Part shown: in pieces, positions 25,122-59,948 of the stretch | How positions within the stretch are numbered: the first letter of the stretch is position 1 | Layout of the letters: each line of letters opens with the position of its first letter | NCBI RefSeq assembly: GCF_000021965.1 | Contig: NC_011832.1 | Span: 2,273,242-2,337,241, forward strand | Direction: 5' to 3' | Length of the DNA: 64,000 nt | From: Methanosphaerula palustris E1-9c | GTDB taxonomy: Archaea > Halobacteriota > Methanomicrobia > Methanomicrobiales > Methanospirillaceae | The notes under the pieces: generated by a model | Seen by the model: only the letters and a program-made list of their open reading frames with translations | Told to the model about the DNA's origin: nothing | Database searches by the model: none | Program-made: the position numbers and the translations under genes

Positions 25122-25401
25122 TGCTTCACTCAGAAAGGCCATCAAGACAGGCGATGTCCTGCTCGGCCAGAACTCTACAGCAGAATGTATCAAGGATGGA
25201 AAAGCCCAGATGATCGTCGTCGCAGCAAACTGCCCGTCCACCTATCGGACCATGCTGGACGAACAGAACGATGTCTACGTCCACACCTATGAAGGATCGA
25301 GCATGCAGCTCGGAAAGGCATGCGGAAAGCCGTTCATGGTCAGCGCACTCGCCATCGTCAATGCCGGCGAGTCGGATATCATCAGTCTCAAGAGGGCGTA
25401 A
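25111..25401 (+). CDS. rpl30e: Ribosomal protein L30e
   Basis: This 96-residue member of the L7Ae/L30e RNA-binding family is placed, as usual in archaea, between rpoA2 and nusA. It has [37 protein letters not shown] and the C-terminal [32 protein letters not shown] 25111 is preceded by GGAGAATTCTA and lies inside the last codons of rpoA2. It may bind kink-turns in rRNA, as its relatives do. Confidence 0.92.
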
Positions 25402-25403
25402 CT

Positions 25404-25850
25404 ATGGGAGAAGTTCTGTTAACAGAGGACTGTATGCGCCTGATCTCACAGTTCGAAAGCCTGACCGGTGCAGGCAGCCGTGACTGTGTGATCGATGATC
25501 GGAACGAACGTATCATCTACGTGATCAACCCCGGCGAAATGGGGCTTGCGATCGGCAAGAAAGGGGCCAGCATCAAGAAAGCCTCCGACGTGATGGGCAA
25601 GCGGATTGAGGTTGTCGAATACTCCGACGATCCCGAACAGTTCATCAAGAACTGTTTCCTTCCGGCCCAGGTCGTCTCGGTGGAATTCGAGGAGAGCGAA
25701 GAGGGGCCGGTCGCCCATGTCGAGGTCAGAGAGGAGGACCGTGGGATTGCGATCGGAAAGGAAGGTAAGAACATCTTCAAGGCCAAGCGTCTCTCCCAGC
25801 GGCAGCATGATATCGCTGATGTTCAACTCGAACAGAGCGAGATCAGTTAA
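25404..25850 (+). CDS. nusA: NusA-like transcription factor (two KH domains)
   Basis: This 148-residue archaeal NusA lacks the bacterial S1 and N-terminal domains and consists of two KH RNA-binding domains. GxxG loops are visible as AIGKKGASIKKA near residue 50 and AIGKEGKNIFKAKRL near 118. It starts two bases after the L30e stop and closes the operon. In many archaea rps12, rps7 and elongation factors follow. Here a T-run and an unrelated gene follow instead. Confidence 0.92.
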   Translation: MGEVLLTEDCMRLISQFESLTGAGSRDCVIDDRNERIIYVINPGEMGLAIGKKGASIKKASDVMGKRIEVVEYSDDPEQFIKNCFLPAQVVSVEFEESEEGPVAHVEVREEDRGIAIGKEGKNIFKAKRLSQRQHDIADVQLEQSEIS

Positions 25851-25861: not shown

Positions 25862-25945
25862 CATCGATCTTCAGACGATCACCGTCATCGATCGAACTGT
25901 TTTATACAAGAGTACTCGAAGAGGTACATCAGGTGTATATCAACA

Positions 25946-26929
25946 GTGTCCCCAAGATCCTGCAGTAAGCTCCCCTGGCTGGTCGTGTCAGGCTACGGTG
26001 CCCATATCAAGTCTACTCCCCGTTTACTTATCGTTCAGAAGAATGGGACCACCACCGAGTACCCGATCGGAGATGTGCACCACCTGCTGGTGGTCGGTGG
26101 GCATACGATCCATTCGGCAGTGTTGCAGCATATGCAGAACGCAGGAAACTGGGTCTCTTTCTTCGCAGCTGACGGCACCCCCGTCGGGCTTATCCGACCC
26201 CCTGAAGACAGGGTCGATGAACAGGTCCGTGCCATCCAGCGGCATGCCCCTGCCCACAGTTATGCACTCGGGATCACCAGAGCCGCACTTGGGAGAAGAC
26301 TGCAGGTGATCGGAGAGACGACCGTGGTCACCGGGGAGAGCCCGCTCTATCAGGGGGAACTGGAGGTACTGCAGGACGCGCGGCAGGAACTCGAATACCT
26401 GGTCACTCTCGATGAGATACGCAGGCTCCACCGGCTGGCCACCGACATGTACTATGAGATCATGGCCCGCACGATCCCCAAAGGAACCGGGTTTCGGCGG
26501 AGGACAGCCCGGCCGTACATGGATCCCGTAAACACGATGCTCTCGTTCTCATATGGGATTCTCTCCGGAGTCTGCGCCGTTCATCTGGCAGGAGCACACC
26601 TGGATGCCAATATCGGCCTGCTTCACCAGGGGGAACGAGCACTAGTGAGGGATCTTACAGAACTCTTTAAACCGCAGATGGTCGACCAGCCCATCTTCGC
26701 CCTGGTCAGACAGGGGATCACTGCAAGCGATTATGAGATTGGGGAGAGCCGGTGCACCCTCTCGGACGCACTGATCCGGCGAATGCTACTGCACCTACAG
26801 ACATCGATTGAAGTGACAGCGATCGGCAGACAGGTAGAGATGCTCGCCGATGCGCTGATCAGGAATCGCGAATTCCAGATCCTCGACCCTGCAGAGTTCT
26901 TACCCCGCATCCCCCTGAAAAACCATTAA
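25946..26929 (+). CDS. Solo Cas1 homologue with substituted catalytic glutamate
   Basis: This 327-residue Cas1-family protein has the N-terminal beta domain (LVVSGYGAHIKS to ADGTPVGLIRP, residues 12-85). The helical domain has FRRRTARPYMDPVNTMLSFSYGIL from 183, GLLHQGER with H227, and DLTELFKP with D236/E239. In active Cas1 the metal-binding Glu sits seven residues before the Tyr of EGxAAxxY. Here that position is H162 (LHRLATDMYY). No other cas gene or repeat array is in the window. The GTG start follows GGTGTATATC; a TATA box is near 25900. It overlaps the acylphosphatase gene tail-to-tail by four bases. It may be a repurposed integrase fold. Confidence 0.8.
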   Translation: MSPRSCSKLPWLVVSGYGAHIKSTPRLLIVQKNGTTTEYPIGDVHHLLVVGGHTIHSAVLQHMQNAGNWVSFFAADGTPVGLIRPPEDRVDEQVRAIQRHAPAHSYALGITRAALGRRLQVIGETTVVTGESPLYQGELEVLQDARQELEYLVTLDEIRRLHRLATDMYYEIMARTIPKGTGFRRRTARPYMDPVNTMLSFSYGILSGVCAVHLAGAHLDANIGLLHQGERALVRDLTELFKPQMVDQPIFALVRQGITASDYEIGESRCTLSDALIRRMLLHLQTSIEVTAIGRQVEMLADALIRNREFQILDPAEFLPRIPLKNH

Positions 26930-27201
26930 AAAAGACCGCGCCTGATAGAAAAATCCTGAAAATCAGCCCCCTCAATCTCATGCACCCGGATATCCCGGAT
27001 GATCGCACGCGGACAGCTGTACAGCATCGATATAAACTTCTCCAGGATCACCGCCTCCGTCACCGCATAGACCCTGACCCTGCCATCGGTCATGTTCATC
27101 ACCTCGCCGTTGATGATCAGGGACTCGGCTATCCGCTTCACACAGGCACGAAATCCGACGGACTGAACACGGCCAGTGATCAGGATCTCGACACCCATCA
27201 C
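26926..27201 (-). CDS. Acylphosphatase
   Basis: This 91-residue protein has the acylphosphatase signature GRVQSVGFRACVKRIA, including the phosphate-binding Arg, and the Asn of VMNMTDGRVRVYA. It hydrolyses acyl-phosphate bonds such as acetyl phosphate. Its start overlaps the stop of the giant repeat protein by four bases, so the two are one operon. ATG 27198, giving MGVEIL, is an alternative start. It is an ordinary family member of normal length. Confidence 0.85.
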   Translation of the reverse strand: MMGVEILITGRVQSVGFRACVKRIAESLIINGEVMNMTDGRVRVYAVTEAVILEKFISMLYSCPRAIIRDIRVHEIEGADFQDFSIRRGLF

Positions 27202-30200
27202 AGGCGGAGCTCCTGCATCACCCTGATCACCATCGCCAGTTCATCGAAGATCAGATCACGCTGCTTGAACTCCCGGATACTGGTCGCAGCCTCGCCGGCC
27301 ATGTCCATCACATCCCCAGACCGGCCCTCGTCGCCAGCGGCAAAGACCCGTAGAGCGATCTCCCCAAGCACGTAGACCCTGCGTGAGAGGGGACGTATGA
27401 TCCCTGCAGCTGTGATTGCGGCAGTGAGCATCTTCTCAGCCAGATTCTCCTGCCCTGCTTCGCGTGCACTGATATAGAGGTCAGTATAGAGTTTGGCCTG
27501 GAGAGCCCGATCTGAAAGGGTGTGGAGTATCCGCTCAAGGGAGACGATCATCCCCTTCGTAAACTCCCCCGAGAGAATCTTCCGCCGTGCATCCAGCACA
27601 CTGGTGGAGACCAGATCACGGGGGAGGGACTCATATTCAAGGTTCATCCTCCGAAGGGCTTCAGCCCTGATATCATCGTCCTCGATCGAGCGTGCGACCG
27701 CGACGGCCCGTTCGCGATATGCCGGATCAGGCCTCCGTGCCGAGATCATCAGCAGTTTCTGGACCACGGCCTTCTTCACCACCGAGACGATGAACGGGAT
27801 GTTGATCTCCTGCAGCGCTGCCTCCGCCCGTTCCAGAAAGAGATCCGCATAGATATACTCTCCAGAAGACTCAGCGATCGGCACCACGTCCAAGAGAGCG
27901 ATGGCTCGTTCATAGGGGGATGCGATCGTCTGGATCGACACCGCAACTGCCTGGAGGATCTCCCTGCACTTCACCGGATCCTGACGAACCATGTTGGAGA
28001 TCGCGATCAGAGCTTCGATGTAATCCTCAGGTGTTCGGATCTCAGCAACGATCTGCATCGCCCGGGCAATATTCTCAGGGTTTTTATTGGTACTGTTGAG
28101 GGAGACGATCGAGAGAACCAGCTGAACACGCACCAGCGAGTCTTTCTCAGGCTCGACCCCTGGCAACAGGTCCATCGCCTCTGAAAGACAGGCATATGCC
28201 TGCTCCTCATCAGATCGGACTAAGAGTGTCGCCACCTCGGCCAGCAGCAGCACCCGCTGATAGACCGAAGAAAGGGCTTCAGTCAGGGAGCGGACGTCCT
28301 TTAAGATATCACCGGCACGGTCCGCTTTTCCATTCTGCAGATACAGATCCGCCAGCGTGCACATCCCGGAGAGACGGGTGTAGACATCCCGGATCTGCTC
28401 GTTCAGACTGTAGGCGAGGTTCAGAATCAACTCTGAACTACCGGCCTGGTCCAACCGCATCAACAGGTACGAAAGGATCTCATACGAGTCGGTGGAGTCA
28501 AGCAGTTCGGTGATCTCCCGGAGGCCCGAGGCGATACGAGAGATCATCGCATCCCGCTCGCAGGGATTCTCGATCTCCAGCGAGAAGATCGTCAGCGGGA
28601 CGAAGAAGTTCATGTTGGTGGACTTGTCGGCGTACTGCAGGATGATATCGATCGAACTGGCGATCTTCAGGGAGACCAGTTGCTTCTGCTGGGACTGCTT
28701 GAGGAGCGAGAGTGCCTGCCGGAATGGACGAATCTCCTCAATAAAGTCTGAGGTGTCACTGATCGTTCCGGCCTCCTCCAGGGTCAGACAACCGACCCGG
28801 ATATAGTTCTCGATGATCCGCTCCATCAGTTGGTGACGGAGCGACGGGTCATCGATCGTCTCAAGGATCTGGGTCGCCTCGTCCAGGGCATACGGGGCCT
28901 TCTCGATCAGGGCGTACCGGATCATCCCCTGGATGATCTTTCCGATCGCAGAGACCGCATACTCCTTATCCAGCAGCGATGTAGACCAGACCTTCATCCT
29001 CCGAAGCAGGTCAAGGTCGGACTGTTTGACGGCGAGGAGCGAGGCCGCCTCGATCACATTGAAGAGCGCCTCCGAACGGGTGTGTTGCCCCTCAATATTA
29101 CAGGAGAGTCCGATCGCCCGCTGCAGGAAGTCCCGGCTGCTTTGTTCGACTCCGATACTGGTCAAATTCTTGATGATCGTCGAAACAGCCCGTTCTCGCA
29201 GGGTCAGATCAGTGATCCCTTCAGCAAAATCGATCAGAATCCCAGGGTCCTGCGAGGTCAGGAACCCATGCTCGATCAGGATCCTGATACAATCACAGAC
29301 CAGATGATCGCTTCGGGGATGCAGATTGGCCAGGGCCTTGACCGCAGCACTGTGCTCGGTCAGCACTCCGAACGGATGATCCTTGCAGAGTTCAAAGACC
29401 GCCCGATAGATCGCAATCTCAGCATGGGACGACTCCATCTGTGAGAGCACCTTCCCGGAGAGGAGGTCCACCTCATCGCGGATCACCCCTTCCTTGAGCA
29501 GCCGGACCACCGAGTCGTCGATCTGCGAACGGTAGGGATAATCGATCGGAAATATCCTTCCAAAGACCTCAATAGCACTATAGAACTCCCCGATTCGGAG
29601 CAGCGTGTTGGTGAAGTGGAGGTAGGTGTGCAGCCCGGTGGCACGATCGCAGATATCGTCAACCAGTTCGATGATGGCCATCAGGAACTGTGCATCTCCA
29701 GTCTTCTCAGCGATCACGATCCCTGAGTGAATGATCTCCTTGAGCGGGATCTGTGCGGAGTCGACGATCCGACCATTGAACTCAAGCGCCTTGCGGATGT
29801 ACCAGAGGTCAGAGGTCATTTCGGCCTTCTTTAAGAGTCTGATAACCAGGTACCGCCGCGACCCGGGGATCTCCCGTTCCAGTGAGATCAACGTCGAATA
29901 AAGTTGGGATTTGTCCCGAACCCGTTCGAGCAGTTCCTGGATCAGACATTCAAGGATCTCGGTCTGGCGGTTAAGCGGAAGGTCTGCGAACGATCCGACG
30001 AAACTCCTGATGTCAGCGATATTCCGGCCGAGCGGGGATCGCCAGGTGAGATCGATAATACCGAGCGTACAGTTGATCCGACGGATCTTCTGCAGAATCG
30101 TCGAGGCGCTCCTGATCGCATCGATGATGATCGAGAGATCCCGCTGTGCAACCCCGATCATGACCATCGCGGTCACAATCTCACAGTGAAGGTCGGCCCT

Positions 30201-30767
30201 CTCTGAGACATCCCCAATCTCCTCTACCAGGTTGAGCGCAGATTGATGGAACCTGATATTCCGCGTCTCGATCCCCCAGGCGATCAGAGAGGGGACGATA
30301 TCGATCAGCAGGGCCGACCGGTACTTCCGGAAACTGATATGGGCGAGGAGGCCCATCCCCTCCTCGATCAACACCGGGTTCTTCGTCCGCACCCCTTCCT
30401 GCACCAGGGCCCTCGTCACCGAGGAGAGAACCTTGGACTGGTGACTCTTCCGGTCGAGCCGGCTGGAGAGGCTGATGATTGCGCCGATCCACTGCTGGTT
30501 GGCGGTGCTGATGTACTGGTCGACCATCCGTCTGACCAGGGACTCAATCTCCTCACGTGACAGTTCCATCAGGGAGGAGAAGAGTTCGGGCTCGTCCCGC
30601 AAAAATCCGGCCTCTTCAAGGCGGGTGTTCACAGCATGGACCAGTTCAGCCCGCTCCTTTCTCTTTGCGACAGACTCGATCTCTATCAGGGCCTTGTTCA
30701 TCAAGGGATAGTCCCGCTGCTCTATCGCCCCTTCGATCTTTTGCTGAAGAACTGATACTGAAGACAT
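27198..30767 (-). CDS. Giant all-helical repeat protein (alpha-solenoid), unknown function
   Basis: This protein of about 1,189 residues is built almost entirely of amphipathic helices spaced as in TPR or HEAT-like solenoids. Recurring themes are A-[IL]-x-x-[IL] helices with phrases such as SVYQRVLLLAEVATLLV, DYIEALIAISNMV and RADLHCEIVTAMVMIG. No signal peptide, membrane segment or catalytic motif is visible. The repeat count was not determined. It probably serves as a protein-binding scaffold. ATG 30767 (in MSSVSVLQQ) is preferred, with GGTGTC five bases before. It is co-transcribed with the acylphosphatase gene. Confidence 0.7.
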   Translation of the reverse strand: MSSVSVLQQKIEGAIEQRDYPLMNKALIEIESVAKRKERAELVHAVNTRLEEAGFLRDEPELFSSLMELSREEIESLVRRMVDQYISTANQQWIGAIISLSSRLDRKSHQSKVLSSVTRALVQEGVRTKNPVLIEEGMGLLAHISFRKYRSALLIDIVPSLIAWGIETRNIRFHQSALNLVEEIGDVSERADLHCEIVTAMVMIGVAQRDLSIIIDAIRSASTILQKIRRINCTLGIIDLTWRSPLGRNIADIRSFVGSFADLPLNRQTEILECLIQELLERVRDKSQLYSTLISLEREIPGSRRYLVIRLLKKAEMTSDLWYIRKALEFNGRIVDSAQIPLKEIIHSGIVIAEKTGDAQFLMAIIELVDDICDRATGLHTYLHFTNTLLRIGEFYSAIEVFGRIFPIDYPYRSQIDDSVVRLLKEGVIRDEVDLLSGKVLSQMESSHAEIAIYRAVFELCKDHPFGVLTEHSAAVKALANLHPRSDHLVCDCIRILIEHGFLTSQDPGILIDFAEGITDLTLRERAVSTIIKNLTSIGVEQSSRDFLQRAIGLSCNIEGQHTRSEALFNVIEAASLLAVKQSDLDLLRRMKVWSTSLLDKEYAVSAIGKIIQGMIRYALIEKAPYALDEATQILETIDDPSLRHQLMERIIENYIRVGCLTLEEAGTISDTSDFIEEIRPFRQALSLLKQSQQKQLVSLKIASSIDIILQYADKSTNMNFFVPLTIFSLEIENPCERDAMISRIASGLREITELLDSTDSYEILSYLLMRLDQAGSSELILNLAYSLNEQIRDVYTRLSGMCTLADLYLQNGKADRAGDILKDVRSLTEALSSVYQRVLLLAEVATLLVRSDEEQAYACLSEAMDLLPGVEPEKDSLVRVQLVLSIVSLNSTNKNPENIARAMQIVAEIRTPEDYIEALIAISNMVRQDPVKCREILQAVAVSIQTIASPYERAIALLDVVPIAESSGEYIYADLFLERAEAALQEINIPFIVSVVKKAVVQKLLMISARRPDPAYRERAVAVARSIEDDDIRAEALRRMNLEYESLPRDLVSTSVLDARRKILSGEFTKGMIVSLERILHTLSDRALQAKLYTDLYISAREAGQENLAEKMLTAAITAAGIIRPLSRRVYVLGEIALRVFAAGDEGRSGDVMDMAGEAATSIREFKQRDLIFDELAMVIRVMQELRL

Positions 30768-30797
30768 CGACACCAATCAATAGGTTTATACTTCATC

Positions 30798-39633: not shown

Positions 39634-40299
39634 TCATTTTTTGATAAAGGGTACCAGTGCCATCGTATTGTTTTGTACTTTCTTTGATATCGTAAAAGGT
39701 CCATCCCAACAACCATTGATAAAATTCCATTCGACCTGATATCGGGAGAGTATAAAGGCCAGTTCGTCGAACGACCACTCTCTCAGATGCCAGTAATTCT
39801 TGGGAGTTCCGTCCGGATTCGTATTTTCAGGAAGTTTATTAGGGGTGCTTATAAAAACACCTTTCTTAGAAACCCGCACCATCTCCTCGATCAGTGCAGA
39901 ATAATCCACTACATGCTCAATAACATCAACACAGGTGACGATATTAAAAAAATTATCGGGATAGTTTAGATGATATCCATCGTACAGGTTCAACTCAACC
40001 AAGCGCGGGTTTCTTCCAACGAGGGTCTGTTGACAATATTCATATGTCTTTTTATCGACATCTACCCCGTATGCTTCACGTGCTTTTATAGAGAGGATGT
40101 TCAATCCGTAACCCAGTCCAAATCCAACATCAAGCACCTTTGCCGACTCATCGAGATAGTTATTCAATGCAAAAAAATACGCCTCAATCTGGACAGGTAC
40201 GACTGAGCCAATCCCCACTGTTGTTGTATACTCCTTCGGGTCAGGTTTTTCAGGCGTGGGCTTTTTGAAAATTTTTGACATCAAATAGTTCCATTTCAT
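39634..40299 (-). CDS. SAM-dependent methyltransferase (class I)
   Basis: This 221-residue protein has motif I VLDVGFGLGYGLNIL near residue 55, the acidic strand AYGVDVDKKTYEY, and VTCVDVIEHVVDYSALIEEMVRV near 118. This is the pattern of the Methyltransf_11/UbiE-like group. It is opposite in strand to its neighbours and is AT-richer. Its place next to the ABC exporter suggests that it methylates a sugar or lipid of the surface glycan. Another methyltransferase lies at 45484. Confidence 0.8.
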   Translation of the reverse strand: MKWNYLMSKIFKKPTPEKPDPKEYTTTVGIGSVVPVQIEAYFFALNNYLDESAKVLDVGFGLGYGLNILSIKAREAYGVDVDKKTYEYCQQTLVGRNPRLVELNLYDGYHLNYPDNFFNIVTCVDVIEHVVDYSALIEEMVRVSKKGVFISTPNKLPENTNPDGTPKNYWHLREWSFDELAFILSRYQVEWNFINGCWDGPFTISKKVQNNTMALVPFIKK

Positions 40300-40769
40300 A
40301 TTTTTCTCTCCATTTTCAGCCGAGGAGGTTCTTTCCCGGATTTATTAAAATATACGTTAGTTTTTTAATTATTTCAATCATCAGCCCTATTTATCGGCTC
40401 AAGATCTCGCCGCTCTGAATACTCAGTTAAAATACTCAGTGAAAAAATTGTCCTTAATTTATCCATTCACCCGTTTTTCGTTCTCTTTGGCAATCCCTAG
40501 TTTTAAGTGAAAATAGTCCACACGACGTTAAAGGTCAATCGGACAGCCTCACAGATAACAACTGAATATTAGTGAATCTGAACGCGCAGTTCACGATTTT
40601 TTTTGACCCGATTTCTCAGGTGAAGCCTGTGTCAGAAACACCGTCATCTAGTAGTTTTATGAAGAAACGAGAAGGTATAAGAGAGTAAAAGAACCCGGGG
40701 ATCCTGAATAAGATTATAGTGATTTCAACAAAGCCTATTTTAGTTTTTATTAACATTTACTAAACGGTT
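40300..40769. other. 470-base AT-rich gap, no gene seen
   Basis: Between the divergent methyltransferase and YfhO-like genes there is no convincing reading frame. It holds a short direct repeat (AATACTCAGT twice near 40417-40440) and scattered T-runs. TATA-like stretches lie near 40650 and 40740. It marks the left edge of an AT-rich insert in the polysaccharide island. Confidence 0.4.
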
Positions 40770-42956
40770 ATGTTCCATCCAAAAAAATTTCCAATTGTTA
40801 GAATTATTCTCCAATATAAAGAATTTATATTCCTATTAGGGCTATCTCTTGTTTTCTTTTATAAAATTTTTCTTCATTCCGATCAGATTATTTTCCCTGC
40901 AAAAGATGTAATAGCACAATATTCTTTCTGGAGATCTTTCTTTGCAACGAATATTCTAAATGGATCCGGTCTCCCTCTCTGGAACCCGTACGTTTTTTCT
41001 GGAACACCCTTCATAGGAAATCCTTTATCCAGCATGTTCTATCCCATTTCATGGTTTTTTGTCTGCTTCAATCCTGATACCCTCTTTGGATACCTCTTTC
41101 TTCTGGATATTTTTTTAATTGGAGCATTCACATACATTTATGGTCGAACAATCAATCTAGACAAATATTCGGCACTGATATCTGCAGTTATTTTTATGTT
41201 CTGCGGAGCGATTACCCCCAGAATTTTTGCCGGCCATCTTGCAAATCTCGATGCAATCGTATGGTTCCCATTGGCTCTGATATTCATTGAACAGACATTT
41301 AAAAGAAGCAGGATTGTATATAGTTTTCTCGCTGGTATTGCATTAGGACTGATGTTCCTCACTGGAAATATCCAGTTTGCATTGTATGGAGCATTTACGG
41401 CACTACTCTATCTCGTAATCCGAACTATTGTAATAGATGATTTGCCCACGACAAGACAAAAAATAACTCATATCGTGGTTGTTGTTTTTTTATCAATTTG
41501 TATTTGTGGTCTGATATCAGCCGTTCAACTTCTTCCAACATGGGAATTTTCACATCTCTCCAGTAGAGGAGAGGGAGTAAGTTACGATTTTTCTACAGAG
41601 ATATCTCTACCGGTACAAAACATCTTCACCTTGTTTGTCCCAGATTTATATGGACCTCCAACGACCACTCAAAATTATTGGGAATTTTCATTTTATATAG
41701 GAATTTTGCCGTTAATCTTAATTATAATTGGTCTCATGTCTCATCGGACAAAATACACCGGAATTTTCTCATTTTTTGCTATATTTTCACTCCTATTTTC
41801 TGCTGGTAGATTTTTTCCAATATATAGTTTATTTTTCCAATTTATTCCTGGGTTTTCCATGTTTCAGATTCCATCAACATTGTTATTCGTATTTTCTTTT
41901 TCATTATCGATCCTCGCAGGGTTGGGATGTGACTTTATAATCAACAAAAGCCACGGTTTTCATTCCAGGTATTATGATCTAACAAAAAATATTCTGATGA
42001 ATACTGCCTTGTTTTCCATGATGATAGGCATTTTTGTGATGATCATAATTTCAACATTTTATATACTATACAAAAAAGTCGGCGGCATATTATATGTCTG
42101 GAATATGCTTCACATTACAGATATCGGGACTATTTACCTAATAGTAGATTTTCTTGTGTTTATCTTCTTTTTTTATGTCAGCGTTCTTGTGATTTATAAT
42201 AAGGATGCCTTCAAAGATCCAAGATTGTTTAAAATTATATTGACTACAATAATCGTTGCAGATCTATTCCTATTTGGTGCGAGATTTATTGACACGAAGG
42301 ACCCAAATGAAGTATTCAAAAACCCTGATTTTATTTCAATTTTTAAAAGCGAAGGAGACAGTTATTTTCGAATTTACGATGAAACCGGAATAATTGACCA
42401 GAACATAGCTCTCCGCAATAAACTGTATCTCGTAAACGGTTACGATCCAACGTATTTAAAGAGATATCAACAATACTATCTCAGATCACAATCAGGGGAT
42501 ATCAATACAACATATAGCTGGAAACAGGAAAACGGAATTGAAGATCTCGATATTTTAAGATCTCTCAATGTGAGGTACATAATTACCTCACAACCTCTAA
42601 ATCTAACAGGAATTGAGATTATTCAAAATAAATCTCCTTTTATCTACCGGTTAAATTACACTTATCCTAGGGCATTTCTCGTCCCAGTTTCCGAGTTCAA
42701 TTCAACAAAACCGGATAGGCTCATCCCTGCTCATATTATTGATTACTCCCCCAATAGGATCACAATACATACCAACAGTTCTGAAGATGTGTATCTCGTT
42801 ACGAGTGAAATCTACTATCCTGGATGGAGTGCCGAAGATGAAGCCTCGAAAATAGAAATAGAAAAATATCAGGGCATTTTCAGATCAGTTCGACTCAGTC
42901 CCGGAGAACATAATATCTCGTTTTCCTATTTCCCAAAGATTCTCACATTCGCCTGA
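40770..42956 (+). CDS. YfhO-like multi-pass membrane protein (GT-C type)
   Basis: This 728-residue protein has about a dozen hydrophobic segments. It opens with FLLGLSLVFFYKIFLHSDQ and the early acidic loop FPAKDVIAQYSFWRSFFATN, followed by GSGLPLWNPYVFSGTPFIGNPLSSMFYP. These are the marks of YfhO-type and related GT-C fold proteins, which transfer sugars from polyprenyl-phosphate donors on the outer face of the membrane. The C-terminal 200 residues are soluble. It is visibly AT-rich and uses codons unlike the core genes, so it was probably acquired. Confidence 0.75.
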   Translation: MFHPKKFPIVRIILQYKEFIFLLGLSLVFFYKIFLHSDQIIFPAKDVIAQYSFWRSFFATNILNGSGLPLWNPYVFSGTPFIGNPLSSMFYPISWFFVCFNPDTLFGYLFLLDIFLIGAFTYIYGRTINLDKYSALISAVIFMFCGAITPRIFAGHLANLDAIVWFPLALIFIEQTFKRSRIVYSFLAGIALGLMFLTGNIQFALYGAFTALLYLVIRTIVIDDLPTTRQKITHIVVVVFLSICICGLISAVQLLPTWEFSHLSSRGEGVSYDFSTEISLPVQNIFTLFVPDLYGPPTTTQNYWEFSFYIGILPLILIIIGLMSHRTKYTGIFSFFAIFSLLFSAGRFFPIYSLFFQFIPGFSMFQIPSTLLFVFSFSLSILAGLGCDFIINKSHGFHSRYYDLTKNILMNTALFSMMIGIFVMIIISTFYILYKKVGGILYVWNMLHITDIGTIYLIVDFLVFIFFFYVSVLVIYNKDAFKDPRLFKIILTTIIVADLFLFGARFIDTKDPNEVFKNPDFISIFKSEGDSYFRIYDETGIIDQNIALRNKLYLVNGYDPTYLKRYQQYYLRSQSGDINTTYSWKQENGIEDLDILRSLNVRYIITSQPLNLTGIEIIQNKSPFIYRLNYTYPRAFLVPVSEFNSTKPDRLIPAHIIDYSPNRITIHTNSSEDVYLVTSEIYYPGWSAEDEASKIEIEKYQGIFRSVRLSPGEHNISFSYFPKILTFA

Positions 42957-43303
42957 ATTTTATATCCTCAGTACTTCGCTAATTTTGTATGTGCTGATAA
43001 GATGCGTAGATTAAAGATGCGTAGATTATTGAACTGAGGAGGAAATCACAAATATAAATGGAGTGCAAGATACCCCCGGTATGGTCCCACCCAACCAAAG
43101 CAGACCTTGCACTCAAGGAAACTACGTCTATCCAAAAGAATGCTGTGGTCTTGCCGTTATTGCCCTGAACTCCCATGTGAGTAATCCTATTCAAGGACCC
43201 CTGAACCAGACAACCATCTTTCAGATATTCATTGAGCCCAAACTCCGCAGTGATTAGGGCATAGTTTCCTGTCTTCGTTCTCTTTTCTTGATCCACGAGA
43301 TTT
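42957..43303. other. Gap before the insertion sequences; tandem repeat, no supported gene
   Basis: It holds a perfect 15-base tandem repeat (42999-43028). The minus strand is open over 42979-43326 (115 codons), but the product has no recognisable domain, part of it is created by the tandem repeat, and it runs into the transposase remnant. I see this as decayed sequence flanking the insertion element. Confidence 0.4.
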
Positions 43304-44422
43304 ATGGGAAGATCTTTAAATTTCATATTCCCTACTATTCAAACAAGTGAAAGAATAGAATCCCGAGTGGTTTATGGAATAAAACGCCAAAAGAGAAGTC
43401 GGAATGGGGGATATTCCCTAATGATTGAAGTGTTTGGGATTGAAATGGCCAGAATGCAGCAGTCCATCCATTCGATCAGTACGATGCTGAAAAAGAGTTC
43501 GTGTGAAACATCACTTCGGTATCGTCTTGCCAAACTCCACATGGATGACCTCGAAGCCGTGAATACCATAATTCTGACGCACCAGGTCTCCTCCATCCTG
43601 ACGTCCGGAGAGGCAGACACCTTTGCCATCGATTACACCAACGACCCGTATTATGGCGAAGTTTCATCAGAGAACGAGGGATACATCATCCTAAGTCAAC
43701 TTAAGAAATCAACCAACGACTTTATTCATACATCACGATCTCTGTGATCACCCGGAACCACCAGGTGACCCTGGCGGCCTATCCCATGACAAAGGGCACT
43801 TCCAAGATCACATATATCACTGTCTGGACGGGATCACGACAAAGAACTTGAGGATCCAAACACATTATCTAGACAGGGGGTTCTACACACGAAAAGTGAT
43901 TGACTTCATGACGACCGTTCAGGTTCCGTTCATCATTCCGGTTAAAAAACACAATCGAGCGATGAAACAACTCCTGATTGGAACGAAATCACGGTTTGGA
44001 GAATATATCATGCGTGGAAAAACGCAGTTCCACCTGAAGATTGCAATCGCCGTAACCTATGCAAGGAAAACGGGGAAAGCATGGGGTCGAAAACCTCAGA
44101 TATGTGGTTGGCATTCCCGGGAAAACTCAGCGGATTCACGAGAACTATAGATCTGGATTTGCAATCAAGTCATATGCAGGATCCGAAACTTGGTCAAACC
44201 CGTACATCAACTCGAAACCCTGTGATCCGATACCTCTTCGCACTTATTGCGTTTCTTCTTAAGAATCTCTGGATGACAGTGCTCTGGACACGATTCTCAC
44301 CCGTGAAACAAGGTCTGCGGACTATCGAGATGGGTGAGTTCAGGTTTGATCAGTCCATGTTGTATATTGGGGAGGCTGTGCAAGTGACTTTAAAGATTGT
44401 CAGGAAAATTCCTGCACTTTGA
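43304..44422 (+). pseudogene. ISH3-like DDE transposase, decayed by frameshifts
   Basis: The transposase is broken over three or more frames. The first part (to 43747) has a helical N-terminus and the catalytic block TFAIDYTNDPYYGE. After a frameshift VITRNHQVTLAAYPMTKG continues. Then another frame (from about 43848) gives HYLDRGFYTRKVIDFM and the last frame gives RTSTRNPVIRYLFALIAFLLKNLWM, the usual C-terminus of these proteins. The order matches ISH3/IS4-type archaeal transposases with DDE chemistry. No intact product is possible. Inverted ends were not identified. Confidence 0.7.
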
Positions 44423-44437
44423 AAACCGGGATAACCA

Positions 44438-45236
44438 ATCGAAATTGATGATGATCTCTGGGATCTTATTAGCCCCTTACTTCCCCCACAAAAGCCTCCA
44501 ACGGGTCGCCCACGCGCTGATGAGCGTGGTTTGATCAATGGCATTCTTTACGTACTTTCCACTGGTTGCTTCTGGACTGACGTTCCCCGACAATATGGCA
44601 CTAAATCTACAACACACCGGTTTCACTTGTTACTCAGTACTCAGGGGAGATAGGACCAGATCTTTGCCCTAATCCGAAACCAAGGCTATGATCTCTCACA
44701 GCTCGATCTCTCCTGTTGTTCGATCGATACTACCACGATCCCCGGAAAAAAGGGGATTGTTAAGATTTGAAGGACTGGATCGAATTCAAGGCAGCAAAAT
44801 GAGTGTTCTCGTAGAACGGCACGGTAGACTGCTCGCCTGCATCATTGCTCCAGCGAACGTGCATGATGCAATGACGTATCATCCGACGTTGACGGTGTTT
44901 AAAATTCAAAGGCCGATAGGAAGGCCGATCATACGACCACAGGAGATTCTCGTAGATGCAGCGTATTATACCCTCGCAATAAGAACAATCAATCGCAGAA
45001 GGGGAATTAAGACAATGATCCCAGTCAATCGGAGAAATCATAGGCGACCAAAAAGGGGACGATCGTATCAATTCGATCCCATAATCTACCGTTCTCGAAG
45101 AGCAGTTGAACGATTCTTTAGCTGGGTCAAGGCATTCAGAAAAATCTCACCCAGATATGAGCGGCTCGAAGAATCATTTCGAGGACTGGTCATCATCGCC
45201 TGCATACTGATACTATGGAGACTTTTGGGATGAGTG
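44438..45236 (+). pseudogene. IS5-family (IS427-like) transposase, broken
   Basis: The N-terminal frame (44438-44653) reads IEIDDDLWDLISPLLPPQKP and GRPRADERGLINGILYVLSTGCFWTDVP, typical of IS5-group transposases, and then meets an in-frame TAG. The same frame resumes as GYDLSQLDLSCCSIDTTTIPGKKG, containing the first catalytic Asp. A frame change leads to the C-terminal part (44688-45233), with GSKMSVLVERHGRL, LVDAAYY and AVERFFSWVKAFRKI carrying the Glu. Two-frame organisation is normal in IS427, but the TAG and lack of a start mark it as dead. It abuts the ISH3-like remnant. Confidence 0.75.
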
Positions 45237-45483
45237 CAGTTAAGTACTGAAACCATAAGTGGTTTGATTTCAATCTCATTTTTTTAGAGAATTGAAAATC
45301 TTCCCGAAGGAGTCTTTTTTTCGGTAAGTTAGAAGAACCTCAGCAAATGTCAAATTCTTACTTGATTTCAGGCGAAAAAATCACTCTCTGCGGGGTATGA
45401 TATTTTCTTCAAGTAGTTTATTCTTTCAGTGGCAAAGTCAGGTTACAAAGCCTTTTTGACTGGCGCAAATAAATACAACTACG

Positions 45484-46242
45484 ATGCCTGAAGAGAGAGC
45501 AACAATCATAGATATTTCTCAGGAGAGGTGGAAAACAGCCCAAAAATTTGAGTTGGAATTTGCCCAAAATACCATTGGATCCGACGACGATTGGAATCTT
45601 TGGTGGATGGAAAAATATTCAAACTATTCATTTTTAGAAGGAAAAGAGTTCCAGAACGTTCTGGAGGTGGGATGTGGACCCCACACAAACGTTCGATATA
45701 TTCTCCCAAAGATCACGGTCGGGAAGATCTGGCTGGAAGATCCTCTGATTCAGTATTATATCACCCATTATCTGAATCAGTGCCCATCGACAACCGATAT
45801 GATAAAATCATTGATCAAAAAACCGTCTAAGAGAGTGAACTTCTGCCTGGAACTGTTTTCAAACCTATCCTATTCCGTCGACCTGAGTTCTGCCAAGCTG
45901 GAAGATCTCCCCTACAAAGATAGTCAGATGGATCTCGTCATATGCATAAACGTCTTGGACCATGTCAATAATTATGACTCATGCATGTCTGAGATGAGTA
46001 GGGTTCTCAAGAGCGGTGGTATCCTCATCCTGGGACAGGATCTGACAAATGCAGAAGATCTCGTGAATTGCCCCGAAGTTGTCTCCGATATCGGCCACCC
46101 CATTAAGGTTGATCACACAATTCTTGACGACACACTCTCCAGATCATTTGAGACACTCACCCGAAAGGTCCTTCCACGGGAGGAAGGGAGGAATCCAGAG
46201 GCTCATTACAGCACATATCTGGGCGTTTTCCAGAAAAAATAA
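45484..46242 (+). CDS. SAM-dependent methyltransferase
   Basis: In this 252-residue protein motif I is VLEVGCGPHTNVRYILP near residue 60. LPYKDSQMDLVICINVLDHVNNYDSCMSEMSRVLKSGGILILGQDL follows, the class I methyltransferase post-motifs. Its substrate is probably a glycan or lipid of this island. A TATA-like AAATAAAT sits only about 12 bases before the ATG, so the true promoter was not identified. The 240 bases upstream hold T-runs and no gene. Confidence 0.78.
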   Translation: MPEERATIIDISQERWKTAQKFELEFAQNTIGSDDDWNLWWMEKYSNYSFLEGKEFQNVLEVGCGPHTNVRYILPKITVGKIWLEDPLIQYYITHYLNQCPSTTDMIKSLIKKPSKRVNFCLELFSNLSYSVDLSSAKLEDLPYKDSQMDLVICINVLDHVNNYDSCMSEMSRVLKSGGILILGQDLTNAEDLVNCPEVVSDIGHPIKVDHTILDDTLSRSFETLTRKVLPREEGRNPEAHYSTYLGVFQKK

Positions 46243-46245
46243 AAT

Positions 46246-47439
46246 TCAGGTCTTTGAAATAGAATCAATCCCCCTGTTTTTTCCGGATATCAACCCAACT
46301 AAAAATTTTTCGTATTCGTTTGAGAAGTTCTCCCGAGTATGATATTTATTGGCATACTCCCAGGATCGCTTCGCCATCTCCTGCAACCGCTCAACAGGGA
46401 GTGAAGAGAGCGAGGAGACCGCCTCTCTGATCTCATCAATAGAACACTGGTTCAAGATGATGCCAAATCCATCCACCGTTACCCCAGATTGATAACTAAT
46501 AACCGGAATGAGACCGGCATGAAGAGACTGGACCACGCTACCGGACTGGCCCTCAGAGCAGGAAGGGTAGATCAACCCGATACAGGTCCTGATGATGCTG
46601 AGAAACTCCAGACTGCTGACGTCCAGCCACCCGAGCGTATGAATATTCGCAGTATGATACAGTTCCTTTTGGTACTCCCCACAGAAGTCGGATTCTGTAT
46701 CTACCTGACCACACACATAGAGATGATGGTCAGGCATTGAACTGAACGCCTCAAGGACGAGATCCAGTCCCTTATGAACCATCCCAGAATTCCCCAACCA
46801 CAAATAATTGTTGCGACACTGTGCGTAGTCCTTCTCAGGGATCTCTGGAAACGTCATAGTCGCTGTGATTGGGATCTGACAAAGTGATTTTCCTGCGTAC
46901 TGAAACGTACTGATCGTAGCCTCATTCCCCAAAATAGTGGCACAATCTGCGAACTCTATACCAAAACTTGGAGGTACAGTCCGTCTGGGGATCAGGGTGG
47001 CCTTCCTTCTCCCCTGAATATCCAACAACCGATGATATTCCGCCGAATTTTGAAAAAGCCAGTGTGATCCCGTGATATGTAAGATCATGTAACAGTCGCG
47101 ATTCAGGAGAGGAACGAGCCGCTCCATATTGCAGTGAATATCGATAAAGAAGGAATAGTGCTTTTCTGGAGTGAACGTTGAGTTATCCCAGTCTATGATA
47201 TCAATAGCATATCCATGTTTACTCCAGAGATGTGCCATCTGATAGCATTCCCACCCATTCGTATGAGTGGTTGGAATTTCATCCGAAGAAGAGTACCCGA
47301 ACGGATCGGTGATGTATGAGAGTAATACGTTTCCTTTGAATTCACCTTCATTTTTCAGGTGAATCATATCTCTTTGATTGGACCTCAGAAGTCCCGAAAC
47401 GATAGCAAACAGAGTTGAGAAAATTTTCATTTGTTTCAT
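46246..47439 (-). CDS. Glycosyltransferase, GT4-like (GT-B fold)
   Basis: This 397-residue protein has a GT-B C-terminal half with NNYLWLGNSGMVHKGLDLVLEAFSSMPDHHLYVCGQV and a donor-site region IRTCIGLIYPSCSEGQSGSVVQSLHAGLIPVIS, in which SCSEGQSG stands in for the usual E-x7-E site. The N-terminus includes a short hydrophobic helix (IFSTLFAIVSGLL). The gene is convergent with the methyltransferase (three bases between stops). Donor and acceptor are unknown. Confidence 0.75.
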   Translation of the reverse strand: MKQMKIFSTLFAIVSGLLRSNQRDMIHLKNEGEFKGNVLLSYITDPFGYSSSDEIPTTHTNGWECYQMAHLWSKHGYAIDIIDWDNSTFTPEKHYSFFIDIHCNMERLVPLLNRDCYMILHITGSHWLFQNSAEYHRLLDIQGRRKATLIPRRTVPPSFGIEFADCATILGNEATISTFQYAGKSLCQIPITATMTFPEIPEKDYAQCRNNYLWLGNSGMVHKGLDLVLEAFSSMPDHHLYVCGQVDTESDFCGEYQKELYHTANIHTLGWLDVSSLEFLSIIRTCIGLIYPSCSEGQSGSVVQSLHAGLIPVISYQSGVTVDGFGIILNQCSIDEIREAVSSLSSLPVERLQEMAKRSWEYANKYHTRENFSNEYEKFLVGLISGKNRGIDSISKT

Positions 47440-47779
47440 ATCTCAATTGACATTCATGAAATATGGAGATTCCCCCAAGATGTCGACAGATATTCCGGTC
47501 ATAGGATTCACAGAGAGAGAGATCGCAGCAAAGGGGGAGAGCGGCGGATAAAATGAGATGGTGGATCCATATTCCTATAATTTCAATTTTTTAAGGAAGC
47601 CTGATTGAATCGGTGATATTATTTTATCCACACAGACCACCCCAGTTGAAATAAGAAAATATCGACACAAAGTATCTCATGATAAGCGACGAAAGATATG
47701 AGAGAGACTGGATTCACTCCGGATCACCTGGAGTGTTTTTTTACTCTGTTCATCCCAGTTTACCGATGAGGGATATGAA
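47440..47779. other. 340-base divergent intergenic region
   Basis: This gap separates two divergent glycosyltransferase genes. TATA-like runs (TATTATTTTATCC near 47617 and TATAATTTC near 47575) could serve either strand. It also contains the stem-loop with T-run listed separately. No gene is supported. Confidence 0.4.
47715..47742 (+). terminator. GC stem-loop followed by seven T, upstream of a glycosyltransferase gene
   Basis: CACTCC-GG (47715-47722) pairs with CC-GGAGTG (47727-47735, one bulged T) around ATCA, followed by T7. It looks like an intrinsic terminator yet stands about 40 bases before the start codon at 47780 on the same strand. It may end upstream transcription or act as an attenuator-like leader element. 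Confidence 0.4.
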
Positions 47780-48892
47780 ATGAAGGCGCTCTACGATCAT
47801 CAGATATTTGAAAGACAGACATTCGGGGGTATTAGCCGGTATTTTTTCGAACTGATGAACAGATATTACCAGAATAATACAGTAAATATTAAACTCTCAC
47901 TCATCTACTCTGATAATCACTATCTGAAAGGTGCTCCATTCTCTCATCACCTCTCATCTCACCAGGTCCCGTCACTTCCCGGAGAGAGGGGAAGAAATCT
48001 CCGGAGAAATCTCCTTTTTACTGCGAACTTTCACTGGAGCAGACGCCAGATCGCAAAAGGAGACTATGATCTTTTTCATCCTACCTATTACGATCCATAC
48101 TTTCTGAATTACTTAAAGGGGCGACCGTATGTTCTGACCGTGTATGATATGATCCATGAATTGTATCCTGAGATGTTTGGAAAAGATTTCACCACTGTTC
48201 AAAAAAGGATCGTTGCAGAAAGGGCGGAGGCAATTCTCGCCATATCCGAGAGCACTAGAACTGATATCATCAGATTATTTGATATCGACCCAGCACTTGT
48301 AAAGGTGGTCCATCTCGCCACATCGTTGGGAGATGTGAAACCAGATACGACACTGACACTTCCTCAGCGATATATCCTCTTTGTCGGAAACAGGACAGTC
48401 TATAAAAACTTCAACTTCTTCATCACCTCCATCTCACCCCTTCTGAAGAAAGATCGATTTCTGCATGTGATCTGCGCAGGAGGAGGGATGTTCTCCGAAG
48501 CCGAAAAAAACCTGCTGAAAGAACTCAATATCAGTAAACAGGTGCTCTACTATACATTCAATGACAGCATGCTCTCACAGTTGTATGCCAGGGCAGAACT
48601 CTTCATCTTTCCATCCCTCTACGAAGGCTTTGGGATCCCCATCCTTGAAGCGTTCAGCTGCGGCTGCCCGGTTGCGGCGAGCAATACCAGTTCTCTCCCC
48701 GAAGTCGGGGGAGATGCTGCACGATACTTTGATCCGATGAGCGCCACATCGCTGGTTGATATAGTAGAAGAGATTGTATACGACAAACCACTTCAGGAGT
48801 CACTCAGAAGGAGAGGATATCTACGGTTGAAGAACTTCTCCTGGGAGAAGACTGCAGAAGAAACAAGAAAGATCTATGAGATGATTGTATGA
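47780..48892 (+). CDS. Glycosyltransferase family 4
   Basis: This 370-residue GT4 enzyme has the N-terminal ALYDHQIFERQTFGGISRYFFEL. The GT-B C-domain shows RYILFVGNRTVYKNFNFF, ARAELFIFPSLYEGFGIPILEAFSCGCPVAASNTSSLPEVGGDAARYFDP and the E-x7-E donor site (EGFGIPILE). It resembles mannosyl- or rhamnosyltransferases that use GDP-sugars. It overlaps gmd by four bases (ATGA), so GDP-linked donors made by that enzyme are plausible. RBS GAGGGATATGAA precedes the ATG. Confidence 0.88.
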   Translation: MKALYDHQIFERQTFGGISRYFFELMNRYYQNNTVNIKLSLIYSDNHYLKGAPFSHHLSSHQVPSLPGERGRNLRRNLLFTANFHWSRRQIAKGDYDLFHPTYYDPYFLNYLKGRPYVLTVYDMIHELYPEMFGKDFTTVQKRIVAERAEAILAISESTRTDIIRLFDIDPALVKVVHLATSLGDVKPDTTLTLPQRYILFVGNRTVYKNFNFFITSISPLLKKDRFLHVICAGGGMFSEAEKNLLKELNISKQVLYYTFNDSMLSQLYARAELFIFPSLYEGFGIPILEAFSCGCPVAASNTSSLPEVGGDAARYFDPMSATSLVDIVEEIVYDKPLQESLRRRGYLRLKNFSWEKTAEETRKIYEMIV

Positions 48893-49851
48893 AAACAGCG
48901 ATTATCACCGGGATAACTGGACAGGACGGTGCGTATCTCAGTCAATTATTACTGAAGAAGGGATACCGGGTTATCGGGTTTGTGCGTAACAGCAAGGGTT
49001 CCTCTCTGACTAAACTCTCCTACCTCAGAATCACAGATCAGATCATCTTCGAGGAATGCAATCTGCTGGATCTCGTAAACATTGTCGGATTGCTGAAGCG
49101 ATATAAACCGGATGAGATCTACAATCTGGCAGCCCAGAGTTCGGTCAAGGCGTCATTTGACCAGCCGATCGCCACCATCGAATTTAATATAATCTCAGTG
49201 ATTAACCTGCTTGAGGCGATTCGGCTCGTCGACCAAAAGATAAAATACTACCAGGCATCGAGCAGCGAGATGTTTGGCAAGGTCGACGATCTTCCGATCA
49301 CGGAAAATACCCCCATGCATCCCCTCAGCCCATATGCAATATCGAAGGCTGCAGCCCATTGGATTGCCATCAATTACCGGGAGAGTTATGGAATATTCAC
49401 CTGCTGTGGCATTCTCTTCAATCACGAATCAATTCTGAGAGATAAGAATTTTTTCACAAAAAAAGTGATCAACGATTCAATCGAGATCTCACGATCCCAG
49501 AGGGGTGTATTACGAGTTGGAAACATTGATATCCGGAGAGATTTCGGGTACGCCCCCCGATATGTTGAAGCGATGTGGTTGATGCTCCAGCATCCAACCC
49601 CTGACGATTATATCATCTGCTCCGGTAAATCCATCCAACTCCGACAGATCCTCCATCATATCTTTAAAAGACTGGGAATTGATCAGAACAAAATAATAAT
49701 CGATGAATCCCTCTACAGGCCCACAGAGATCGAGAATATCTACGGGGATAATTCGAAAGTAAAAAAAGTTCTAGGCTGGGAATATACCACTGATTTCTTC
49801 GAAGTGATCGATATTCTCATCGATGAACAGTTAAAATATAAGACTGAGTAG
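48889..49851 (+). CDS. gmd: GDP-mannose 4,6-dehydratase
   Basis: This 320-residue short-chain dehydrogenase makes GDP-4-keto-6-deoxymannose from GDP-mannose. Visible are TGITGQDGAYLSQLLLKKGY (NAD-binding), NLAAQSSVKASF, YQASSSEMFGKVDDLPITENTPMHPLSPYAISKAAAHW (catalytic S and Y-x3-K), the loop RRDFGYAPRYVEAMWLMLQ and a C-terminal VKKVLGWEY. The RxD-type pattern fits Gmd. No GDP-fucose synthase (Fcl) or Rmd reductase is adjacent, so the final sugar could be fucose, rhamnose or talose made with an enzyme encoded elsewhere. Confidence 0.85.
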   Translation: MKTAIITGITGQDGAYLSQLLLKKGYRVIGFVRNSKGSSLTKLSYLRITDQIIFEECNLLDLVNIVGLLKRYKPDEIYNLAAQSSVKASFDQPIATIEFNIISVINLLEAIRLVDQKIKYYQASSSEMFGKVDDLPITENTPMHPLSPYAISKAAAHWIAINYRESYGIFTCCGILFNHESILRDKNFFTKKVINDSIEISRSQRGVLRVGNIDIRRDFGYAPRYVEAMWLMLQHPTPDDYIICSGKSIQLRQILHHIFKRLGIDQNKIIIDESLYRPTEIENIYGDNSKVKKVLGWEYTTDFFEVIDILIDEQLKYKTE

Positions 49852-50124
49852 ACAAGAGATGACATATCTCTTAATCGAGTAAAAATGTCCGGAAAAGAAG
49901 AAATGAACCCATCATGTGGATGCTCCATAAGTACTCTTTTTTAGATCATTTTACCCACCATCCAAAGAATATCCTGGGAGGAGCCGTATCTCTTCTCACA
50001 GGATTGGAGACGGGTAATTCTGGCAGGTCTCTGGATTTGCATTCTAATCGACATCTTATGCAGAATAAATAAATCGGACTCACTCCAATTTGATAAGAGG
50101 AACGATGCAGGATTTTTAGAGAAT

Positions 50125-51024
50125 ATGGTACCATCCTCAATGACAAATACACAGTTGATCGAAGAGCAGGGAATCTCGATACTTCTGGGAACATATAACC
50201 GCAAATCCTTCCTGGAATCTACCATCCATTCCATCAGAGAAGAGATGGAGCCTGGAAAAATCCCCTATGAGATCATCGTGGTCGATGGCGGGTCGACGGA
50301 CGGCACCCTCCCCTGGCTAATGAAACAACGCGACATCATCACCATTGTTCAACACAATCACGGCCAGTGGAGAGGTAAAACCATCGAACGACAATCATGG
50401 GGATATTTCATGAACCTTGGATTCAAGGCCGCTCTCGGGAAGTATATCTGCATGGTCAGCGACGATTGTCTGATCATACCCGGGGCGATAACCAGGGGAT
50501 ATGCTCAGTTTGAAGAATGTGTCAAACGGGAAGAGAAGGTGGGAGCTCTTGCATTCTTCTGGAGAAACTGGCCGGAAGAGAAGAGGTACTTCGTTCAAAA
50601 TTTTTTCGGAAAGGTCAACGTGAACCATGGTATGTATCTTCATAAAGCCCTGAAAGAGGTTGGATATGCAGATCAGGATACCTACCGATTTTATGCCGGG
50701 GATGTCGATCTGATCTTCAAACTGGACCAGAGAGGGTATATATCAATTGCATCCAGCAACTCATTTATTGAGCATTTCAGCCATGCAAATCCATTTTTAC
50801 GAACTGTCAATATGAAAACGATGGACGATGACATCAAGAGTTTCATCAATAAATGGAGACAGGTGCTTCCAGAGTATAATTTCACCGAGCAGAATCGATG
50901 CCACCTGCTTGAGAGTTCATTCATTGATCCCGACAATACAGTCCAGAAATGGAAGGCACGAATGAATGTAAAGATATACCTGTTAAAAAGAACGGTCAGT
51001 GCGCATCTGTTCAATTTAAGATGA
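50125..51024 (+). CDS. Glycosyltransferase family 2
   Basis: This 299-residue GT-A enzyme has the nucleotide-binding start ISILLGTYNRKSFLESTIHSIRE, VVDGGSTDGT near residue 55, and the metal motif VSDDC near 112 (in place of DXD). No membrane segment is present. ATG 50140 (MTNTQ) is an alternative start. It probably adds one sugar of the exported glycan. The 273 bases upstream contain no supported gene. Confidence 0.82.
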   Translation: MVPSSMTNTQLIEEQGISILLGTYNRKSFLESTIHSIREEMEPGKIPYEIIVVDGGSTDGTLPWLMKQRDIITIVQHNHGQWRGKTIERQSWGYFMNLGFKAALGKYICMVSDDCLIIPGAITRGYAQFEECVKREEKVGALAFFWRNWPEEKRYFVQNFFGKVNVNHGMYLHKALKEVGYADQDTYRFYAGDVDLIFKLDQRGYISIASSNSFIEHFSHANPFLRTVNMKTMDDDIKSFINKWRQVLPEYNFTEQNRCHLLESSFIDPDNTVQKWKARMNVKIYLLKRTVSAHLFNLR

Positions 51025-51080
51025 TTATTGAAGGACAACTGAAGGAAATAGGATTATCATAACATTATTATCTGGAGAAC

Positions 51081-52214: not shown

Positions 52215-52262
52215 AAATCATTGGGATATTAGCGTTCATGTGAGATATCCCTTCATTCGACA

Positions 52263-52380
52263 TTCCGCAGTAAGCATATTTTCGTCAAATTGTTAACCCA
52301 ATTAGGTGAATAATTTTTCAGTTGGGAGAAAAATAACCCAAAATGATCAACGATTCTCCAAAAATAGCCTTACTGCGGAA
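52263..52380. repeat. 118-base element with terminal inverted repeats (MITE-like)
   Basis: TTCCGCAGTAAG at 52263-52274 is matched by its exact reverse complement at 52369-52380. Similarity continues imperfectly inwards (CATATTTTCG against GCTATTTTTGG). The inside is AT-rich and non-coding. It lies between two convergent glycosyltransferase genes. A short non-autonomous transposable element is likely; a large bidirectional terminator structure is the alternative. Confidence 0.5.
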
Positions 52381-52407
52381 CGTGGGGTCCATAATATTCA
52401 CTGATTG

Positions 52408-53439: not shown

Positions 53440-53507
53440 GACCAGTCTCTCCTTCTGATTAAAAAAAGGAGATCCGGATCTGTTTGACTCTTCAGCAAAT
53501 ATCTCCT

Positions 53508-56572: not shown

Positions 56573-56587
56573 ACAAACTCCTATTCA

Positions 56588-57538: not shown

Positions 57539-57588
57539 TTTTTCTCCACAGATCAAATTCAAGATTGGAATGAATTAAAAAGGATATC

Positions 57589-59456: not shown

Positions 59457-59948
59457 TTTTGTATCACCGTTATCATGAAGTCATCAGAGATTCATATACT
59501 GAATAGAATAAAAACCGATCTTCAGCAGTTAATATATCGACTAGCGATTTTAAAAAATTAAGGTTTTCTTACTCTTTTGTTGGTGTTTATGAGATAATTA
59601 ATATCCTAGGTCACCTGCTGTATTCATATTTGACGGGGTTTTCATGAGACCTACCCCGGGAGATCGTATTCTACCTAGAATAGGGAGGTCGTGCAACTAC
59701 CAGTTACGGTCCACAAAAAACAAAATCGGTAGATCTGATTGTTTTACACACTCTCCCCACCTACAGATCTTCGGATCGTCTATGAGATGGTGGTGGAGAT
59801 CGATGACCCACCATTTTTAAAGGAGGTACTAAATTGTTGTCCATTCATTTGAGTGAATTGGGAAATACTGACCCATATTTATGCCATAAATCCCTAATTT
59901 TATCAGTAATCCCCCAGATACTCCTCTCCAGCGGGAGATGAGATATTC
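59457..59948. promoter_or_regulatory. 492-base divergent promoter region between the rfb operon and a glycosyltransferase
   Basis: On the minus strand a TATA box (59491-59500) and GGTGAT (59463-59468) serve rfbF. On the plus strand CATATTTATG near 59873 and GGGAGATGAG near 59934 serve the gene at 59949. The middle is AT-rich and contains imperfect repeats (AAACAAAATC against GATTGTTTT around 59735). The minus-strand frame at 59829-60110 is a shadow of the glycosyltransferase start. No gene is supported. Confidence 0.5.

Follow-up and report, generated by a model that had tools for sequence, protein, structure and literature searches.

In the genome of Methanosphaerula palustris, a Cas1 protein (cas1-solo) is encoded away from any CRISPR locus and has a histidine at the position of the metal-binding glutamate. 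We think it rather likely that its Cas1 fold has been retired from integration and is kept under selection as a non-catalytic core binding protein, probably a dimeric one. The family and its inactive site have already been published (Makarova 2013, Krupovic 2014). Cas1-solo group 1 was described as found in Methanomicrobiales only, with no sign of horizontal transfer and no member with a full active site (PMC4046053, PMC9939771); in their passages on this group, PMC4046053 (Krupovic 2014) and PMC9939771 (a 2023 review) cite Makarova 2013. The protein studied here shares with group 1 the non-CRISPR locus, the restriction to Methanomicrobiales, the incomplete catalytic residues and a clade of its own, and shows no difference from the published description. 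Our additions are the near-universality of the family, its independence of CRISPR, the pattern of constraint, an ortholog with a complete set of catalytic residues (L159), the synteny with an acylphosphatase gene and a conserved upstream box, which is new as far as the searched literature shows.

The window, that is, the whole 64,000-nucleotide stretch of DNA analysed, covers positions 2,273,242-2,337,241 of the single 2,922,917-bp contig. The gene and its neighbours are as follows.

25320..25850, plus strand: NusA-like KH protein, encoded at the end of the RNA polymerase operon that lies upstream (KH matches, synteny).
25900..25909, plus strand: candidate own promoter of cas1-solo, TATA-like TTTTATACAA, some 45 nt ahead of the GTG, proposed from the sequence.
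25946..26929, plus strand: cas1-solo (Cas1-solo group 1), GTG start, 327 aa.
26926..27201, minus strand: acylphosphatase gene (PF00708, E 7.8e-17), convergent with cas1-solo and overlapping its stop codon by 4 nt.
27198..30776, minus strand: 1192-aa repeat protein with no Pfam match over cut-off, adjoining the acylphosphatase gene; its family occurs in 12 compared loci.

The Cas1-solo protein matched PF01867 (E 1.5e-53, profile positions 1-282 of 283), TIGR00287 (137.7 bits, cut-off 71.7) and PADLOC Cas1 (2e-46). The matches run along the whole protein, in agreement with the Cas1 fold signatures described in an earlier note on this DNA, and judged by these profiles it is a full-length Cas1 fold. 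A structure prediction based on a three-row alignment reached a pLDDT of 51 (below 50 in the C-domain) and was set aside as too poor for metal-site geometry.

In about 100 of 111 loci the acylphosphatase gene neighbours the solo gene, and the stop codons of the two often overlap; a tail-to-tail arrangement, usually with an overlap or a gap of no more than 25 nt, was counted in 48 of 56 loci. The convergent orientation speaks against an operon, and we therefore treat the acylphosphatase gene as a marker of synteny and not as a functional link. Upstream of the solo gene, most relatives carry divergent PaaK/ACT genes, while in M. palustris and one related genus the solo gene follows the KH/NusA-like gene that belongs to the RNA polymerase operon. 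PolB and HNH/HTH genes were not recognised near the solo gene, either in the window or in the roughly 20 relatives compared. Farther along the window, the region 40000-60000 has a low GC content (36-49%), contains glycosyltransferase, sugar-nucleotide and methyltransferase genes and a transposase-like ORF (44688-45233), and looks like an acquired surface-polysaccharide island.

Orthologs of cas1-solo were found in 194 of the 199 Methanomicrobiales genomes, and in 131 of 132 when the good-quality ones were taken. Based on a 41-sequence family profile, all 55 sampled members reached 371 bits or more, and the phylum yielded no other score above 158; this search across the phylum detected no ortholog outside Methanomicrobiales. 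Five genomes miss the ortholog. In one of them (G151) the acylphosphatase gene lies at a contig end, and in another (G057) the acylphosphatase of the region was also not found; true gene loss is unsupported in these two genomes, both cases being consistent with assembly gaps. One genome (G161) has two solo copies, on contigs C67 and C101, each with its own acylphosphatase gene, which points to mixed strains or a duplication.

In the Cas1 tree, the solos form one clade with a support of 100/100 and a long stem, and their parent group is not resolved by this tree. The near-universal presence and the kept acylphosphatase synteny may reflect vertical inheritance. Two scans of viral contigs found no relatives, so no mobile copies were seen. 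The highest-scoring non-solos (137-158 bits) are type III-associated CRISPR Cas1 proteins encoded in other genomes of the phylum (L113, L115, L119), which have the same fold and length as the solos but possess an intact EG..H..D..E, lie adjacent to cas2 and type III genes and are separated from the solos by the long stem. Casposases (Cas1-solo group 2, M. mazei 6opm) have in common with the window protein the Cas1 fold and the stand-alone position relative to CRISPR, but keep E162/H232/E247, a C-terminal HTH and a polB neighbour. An identification of the window protein as casposase-like is not supported, given its separate clade, the lack of PolB or HNH nearby, the missing HTH extension and the His at 162. 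A casposase of almost equal length to 6opm and highly similar to it (L061, E 1e-181) is present in a Methanomicrobiales genome (G135) that also has a solo, and it branches apart from the solos.

The active-site positions of the window protein, assigned from alignments, are the following.

26429..26431, plus strand: codon 162, CAC, His at the metal-binding Glu position (casposase E162).
26624..26626, plus strand: codon 227, His (casposase H232), kept in the window protein and variable in the family.
26651..26653, plus strand: codon 236, Asp, kept in 130 of 131 orthologs.
26660..26662, plus strand: codon 239, Glu (casposase E247), E or D in 120 of 131 orthologs.

In the alignment with 7cr6, H162 falls in the column of the invariant Cas1 Glu, where Glu is also found in every one of the 12 Methanomicrobiales Cas1 proteins from CRISPR or casposons that were aligned. 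Through L061, the casposase of a relative, H162 maps to E162, H227 to H232 and E239 to E247 of 6opm, the M. mazei casposase, whose active site is given in PMC6977970. These three alignments bear out the earlier claim of a His at the catalytic Glu position, and H227, D236 and E239 are all present, as had been stated. Comparison with the other solo proteins showed that His is not the fixed replacement in the family. Among 131 distinct orthologs, column 162 contains H (75), S (23), F (9), E (7), Q (5), Y (5), D (3), A (2) and, in the rest, N. Column 227 contains H (73), R (15), N (12), S (11), Y (10) and others, and column 239 contains E (68), D (52), N (7), A (3) and G (1). The E/H/D/E set is incomplete in 130 of the 131 orthologs. 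Judging from these residues, the window protein is very probably not a functional integrase.

It should be noted that cas1-solo is under purifying selection. The pairwise dN/dS between close relatives ranges from 0.04 to 0.39 with a median of about 0.13, and the pairs include members from genomes without another Cas1 (G005, G041, G081). Residues W11, G51, Q98, E138, R160, Y169, Y170, E171, R175, D247 and C270 are invariant in 131/131. On a tree of 56 sequences, columns 162, 227 and 239 need a minimum of 12, 16 and 12 changes, respectively; in entropy they rank at the 46th, 62nd and 39th percentiles. Hence, the strand-transfer metal ligands (Glu, His, Glu/Asp) drift like average positions, with other residues fixed. 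A conserved stretch specific to the solos was located in the former catalytic helix.

26444..26470, plus strand: DMYYEIMAR, codons 167-175, with YYE (169-171) and R175 in 131/131 orthologs.

The conserved face of this helix lies 180 degrees from residue 162 in the solos versus about 39 degrees in other Cas1 proteins, a shift that is suggestive only, with a shuffle P of 0.024 and helix limits of our own choice. Position 242, which corresponds to the phosphate-contact residue R250 of the casposase, is K or R in 120 of 131 solos. Other casposase DNA contacts (W77, Y206, R280) are replaced in the solos, and Y243 persists in just 18 of 56. The median pI is 6.1 for the solos versus 8.3 for the other Cas1 proteins of Methanomicrobiales. 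Based on the acidic pI and the lost casposase contacts, DNA binding by the solo protein is possible but not supported. The proposal that the integrase is altered or non-catalytic and has a housekeeping role agrees with the near-universal presence, the selection, the loss of the triad in 130 of 131 orthologs and the independence of CRISPR in 30 genomes, whereas the "structural DNA role" attached to it finds no support in an acidic protein that has lost most casposase ssDNA contacts.

The acidic pI and the loss of the ssDNA-channel contacts, together with the shift of constraint to a charged face on the other side from the catalytic residue, would also suit a protein-protein scaffold or adaptor that keeps only the Cas1 fold and the dimer. 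We are doubtful of this explanation, since K/R242 and the conserved R118, R160, R175, R185, R186 and R269 are compatible with nucleic-acid binding, no co-transcribed partner gene was found and the acylphosphatase gene is convergent.

Upstream of the solo gene, on its own strand, an 18-bp box (AWCGATGNATTAATCA) was found in 79 of 111 orthologs, compared with 0.7% in shuffles and 0.9% on the reverse strand; the matrix was trained on the same 111 regions, 60 of which are already matched by a fixed seed. The box is mostly situated 62-93 nt before residue ~10 of the solo (for example, L004:7914-7934, L065:8992-9012 and L081:8961-8981), and its core positions reach about 2 bits in 50 non-redundant regions. 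It has GAT/ATC-like arms, sits where BRE/TATA would be and is followed 26-34 nt downstream by a weaker AT-rich patch, which corresponds to a BRE/TATA-to-initiator spacing. Zero-mismatch copies occur only at the solo gene in the genomes searched, virtually one per genome, and a search for a box regulon in 15 genomes found other near-matches at chance level. The box is absent upstream of cas1-solo in M. palustris, and its presence needs about 10 state changes on the tree. We regard it as a candidate conserved core promoter or operator. Assignment to PaaK was rejected, as the box remains at the solo gene in genomes that have PaaK elsewhere, and so was a start-stop mini-ORF (ATG-NNN-TAA/TGA), several variants having no ATG or no stop. 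No known RNA family matched the loci of four relatives at gathering scores.

The position of the box with its paired arms, its frequency far from that of shuffles, its fidelity to the solo gene and the absence of other exact copies would be expected if the solo were a sequence-specific DNA-binding protein controlling its own promoter through a dedicated element. This is unlikely in our opinion. The solo as the binder of the box is conjecture, and the box may be an unusually conserved core promoter; its repeated gain or loss, including its absence in M. palustris, where the protein persists, the acidic pI of the solos and the lack of a significant change in protein rate at box loss all speak against such control. 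Faster evolution of the protein after box loss was seen in 8 of 11 cases, which is not significant (P 0.23). It also seems improbable to us that Cas1 was domesticated at the base of Methanomicrobiales as a core, non-immune, non-catalytic DNA-binding protein recognising one site per genome, its own promoter box, and serving as a regulator or chromosomal protein.

Another explanation is that the solo keeps metal-dependent nuclease or integrase chemistry, either in an altered site (His162/His227/Asp236/Glu239), with a different metal, or with a substitute carboxylate such as E138. In the window protein, H162 could coordinate another metal jointly with H227 and D236/E239, and the combination H162-H227-D236-D/E239 is present in 42 of 131 orthologs, this protein included. 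D236 and E138 are invariant or nearly so, and one ortholog (L159 from G117) has the classical set. We nevertheless judge continued chemistry of this kind to be quite improbable. In many solos these columns are occupied by F, S, A, R or K, and in E. coli Cas1 a substitution with Ala at any one of the four positions abolishes the nuclease activity, as cited in PMC4046053. Moreover, H162 and H227 are not linked: H227 accompanies H162 in 42 of 75 proteins and occurs in 31 of 56 without it, and a coupled new metal pair was thus rejected. The full E/H/D/E set was seen in a group 1 solo in L159 (also L241:7969-8895), while the sisters of L159 (L168 and L221) have lost the His. Taken at the level of residues, L159 qualifies the published "none" for complete active sites in Cas1-solo group 1, and activity may persist in a minority of solos.

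As for the CRISPR context, no CRISPR-like repeat was detected within the 64-kb window, and neither cas2 nor PolB was found near cas1-solo. The earlier statement that cas2, effector and array are absent therefore holds for the window but not for the rest of the genome, where type I-E and type I-D modules are present. The type I-E locus (L063, C1:1642500-1655000, up to ~1.66 Mb) includes an intact Cas1e (E, H, D), an overlapping Cas2e and an array of about 100 repeats with 61-nt spacing. Its Cas1e/Cas2e genes are about 650 kb from cas1-solo, and the genome encodes no Cas1 other than Cas1e and the solo. The type I-D module (C1:148000-154000, L245:4765-10790) is an orphan and consists of Cas10d, Csc2 and Csc1 with an array of only two repeats; Csc2 was called by profile and Cas10d and Csc1 by sequence and gene order, and no cas1, cas2 or cas3 was recognised beside the module.

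All 106 genomes that are at least 95% complete have a PF01867 match, and in 30 of them the solo is the only one, as counted by hand with the exclusion of G057, which has one match only, a weak one to a protein other than the solo. PF09827, the main Cas2 family, was found in 59 genomes and in none of these 30. Given the solo-only genomes without PF09827 Cas2 and the separate Cas1e of the type I-E system, cas1-solo is not part of a CRISPR adaptation module. Help to adaptation in trans, as a non-catalytic Cas1 subunit of the kind that exists in Cas1 dimers (PMC6977970) or in the service of the type I-D module, which lacks a cas1 and a cas2, is very improbable, since no PF09827 Cas2 accompanies the solo where it is the only Cas1, the type I-D locus has only two repeats and the type I-E system has intact Cas1e and Cas2e.

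Returning to a non-catalytic core binding protein as the favoured role, we suggest the following course of events. Cas1 would have been present at the base of Methanomicrobiales, become separated from CRISPR adaptation and been inherited as a single-copy core gene. The solo protein would then have stopped cutting and integrating DNA while keeping the Cas1 fold, and it probably acts as a dimer in binding. The helix that was once catalytic would contribute its back face to the surface under constraint, to which several invariant Arg and Glu residues would also belong. The ligand may be a protein partner or a nucleic acid that is branched or contains ends. Nucleic acid as the main ligand has somewhat less than an even chance in our estimate, and it is put slightly ahead of protein only because the Cas1 fold and K/R242 are kept.

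The recruitment of CRISPR genes to other cellular work has rarely been documented, and here an inactivated Cas1 is found in practically every Methanomicrobiales genome, even where no other Cas1 remains. TIGR00287, the NCBI Cas1 equivalog model, matched 41 of 41 family members scanned, so surveys using Cas1 as a CRISPR marker will overcount in Methanomicrobiales. Since the solo is kept throughout the order, even as the sole Cas1, its role should be findable in any culturable member.
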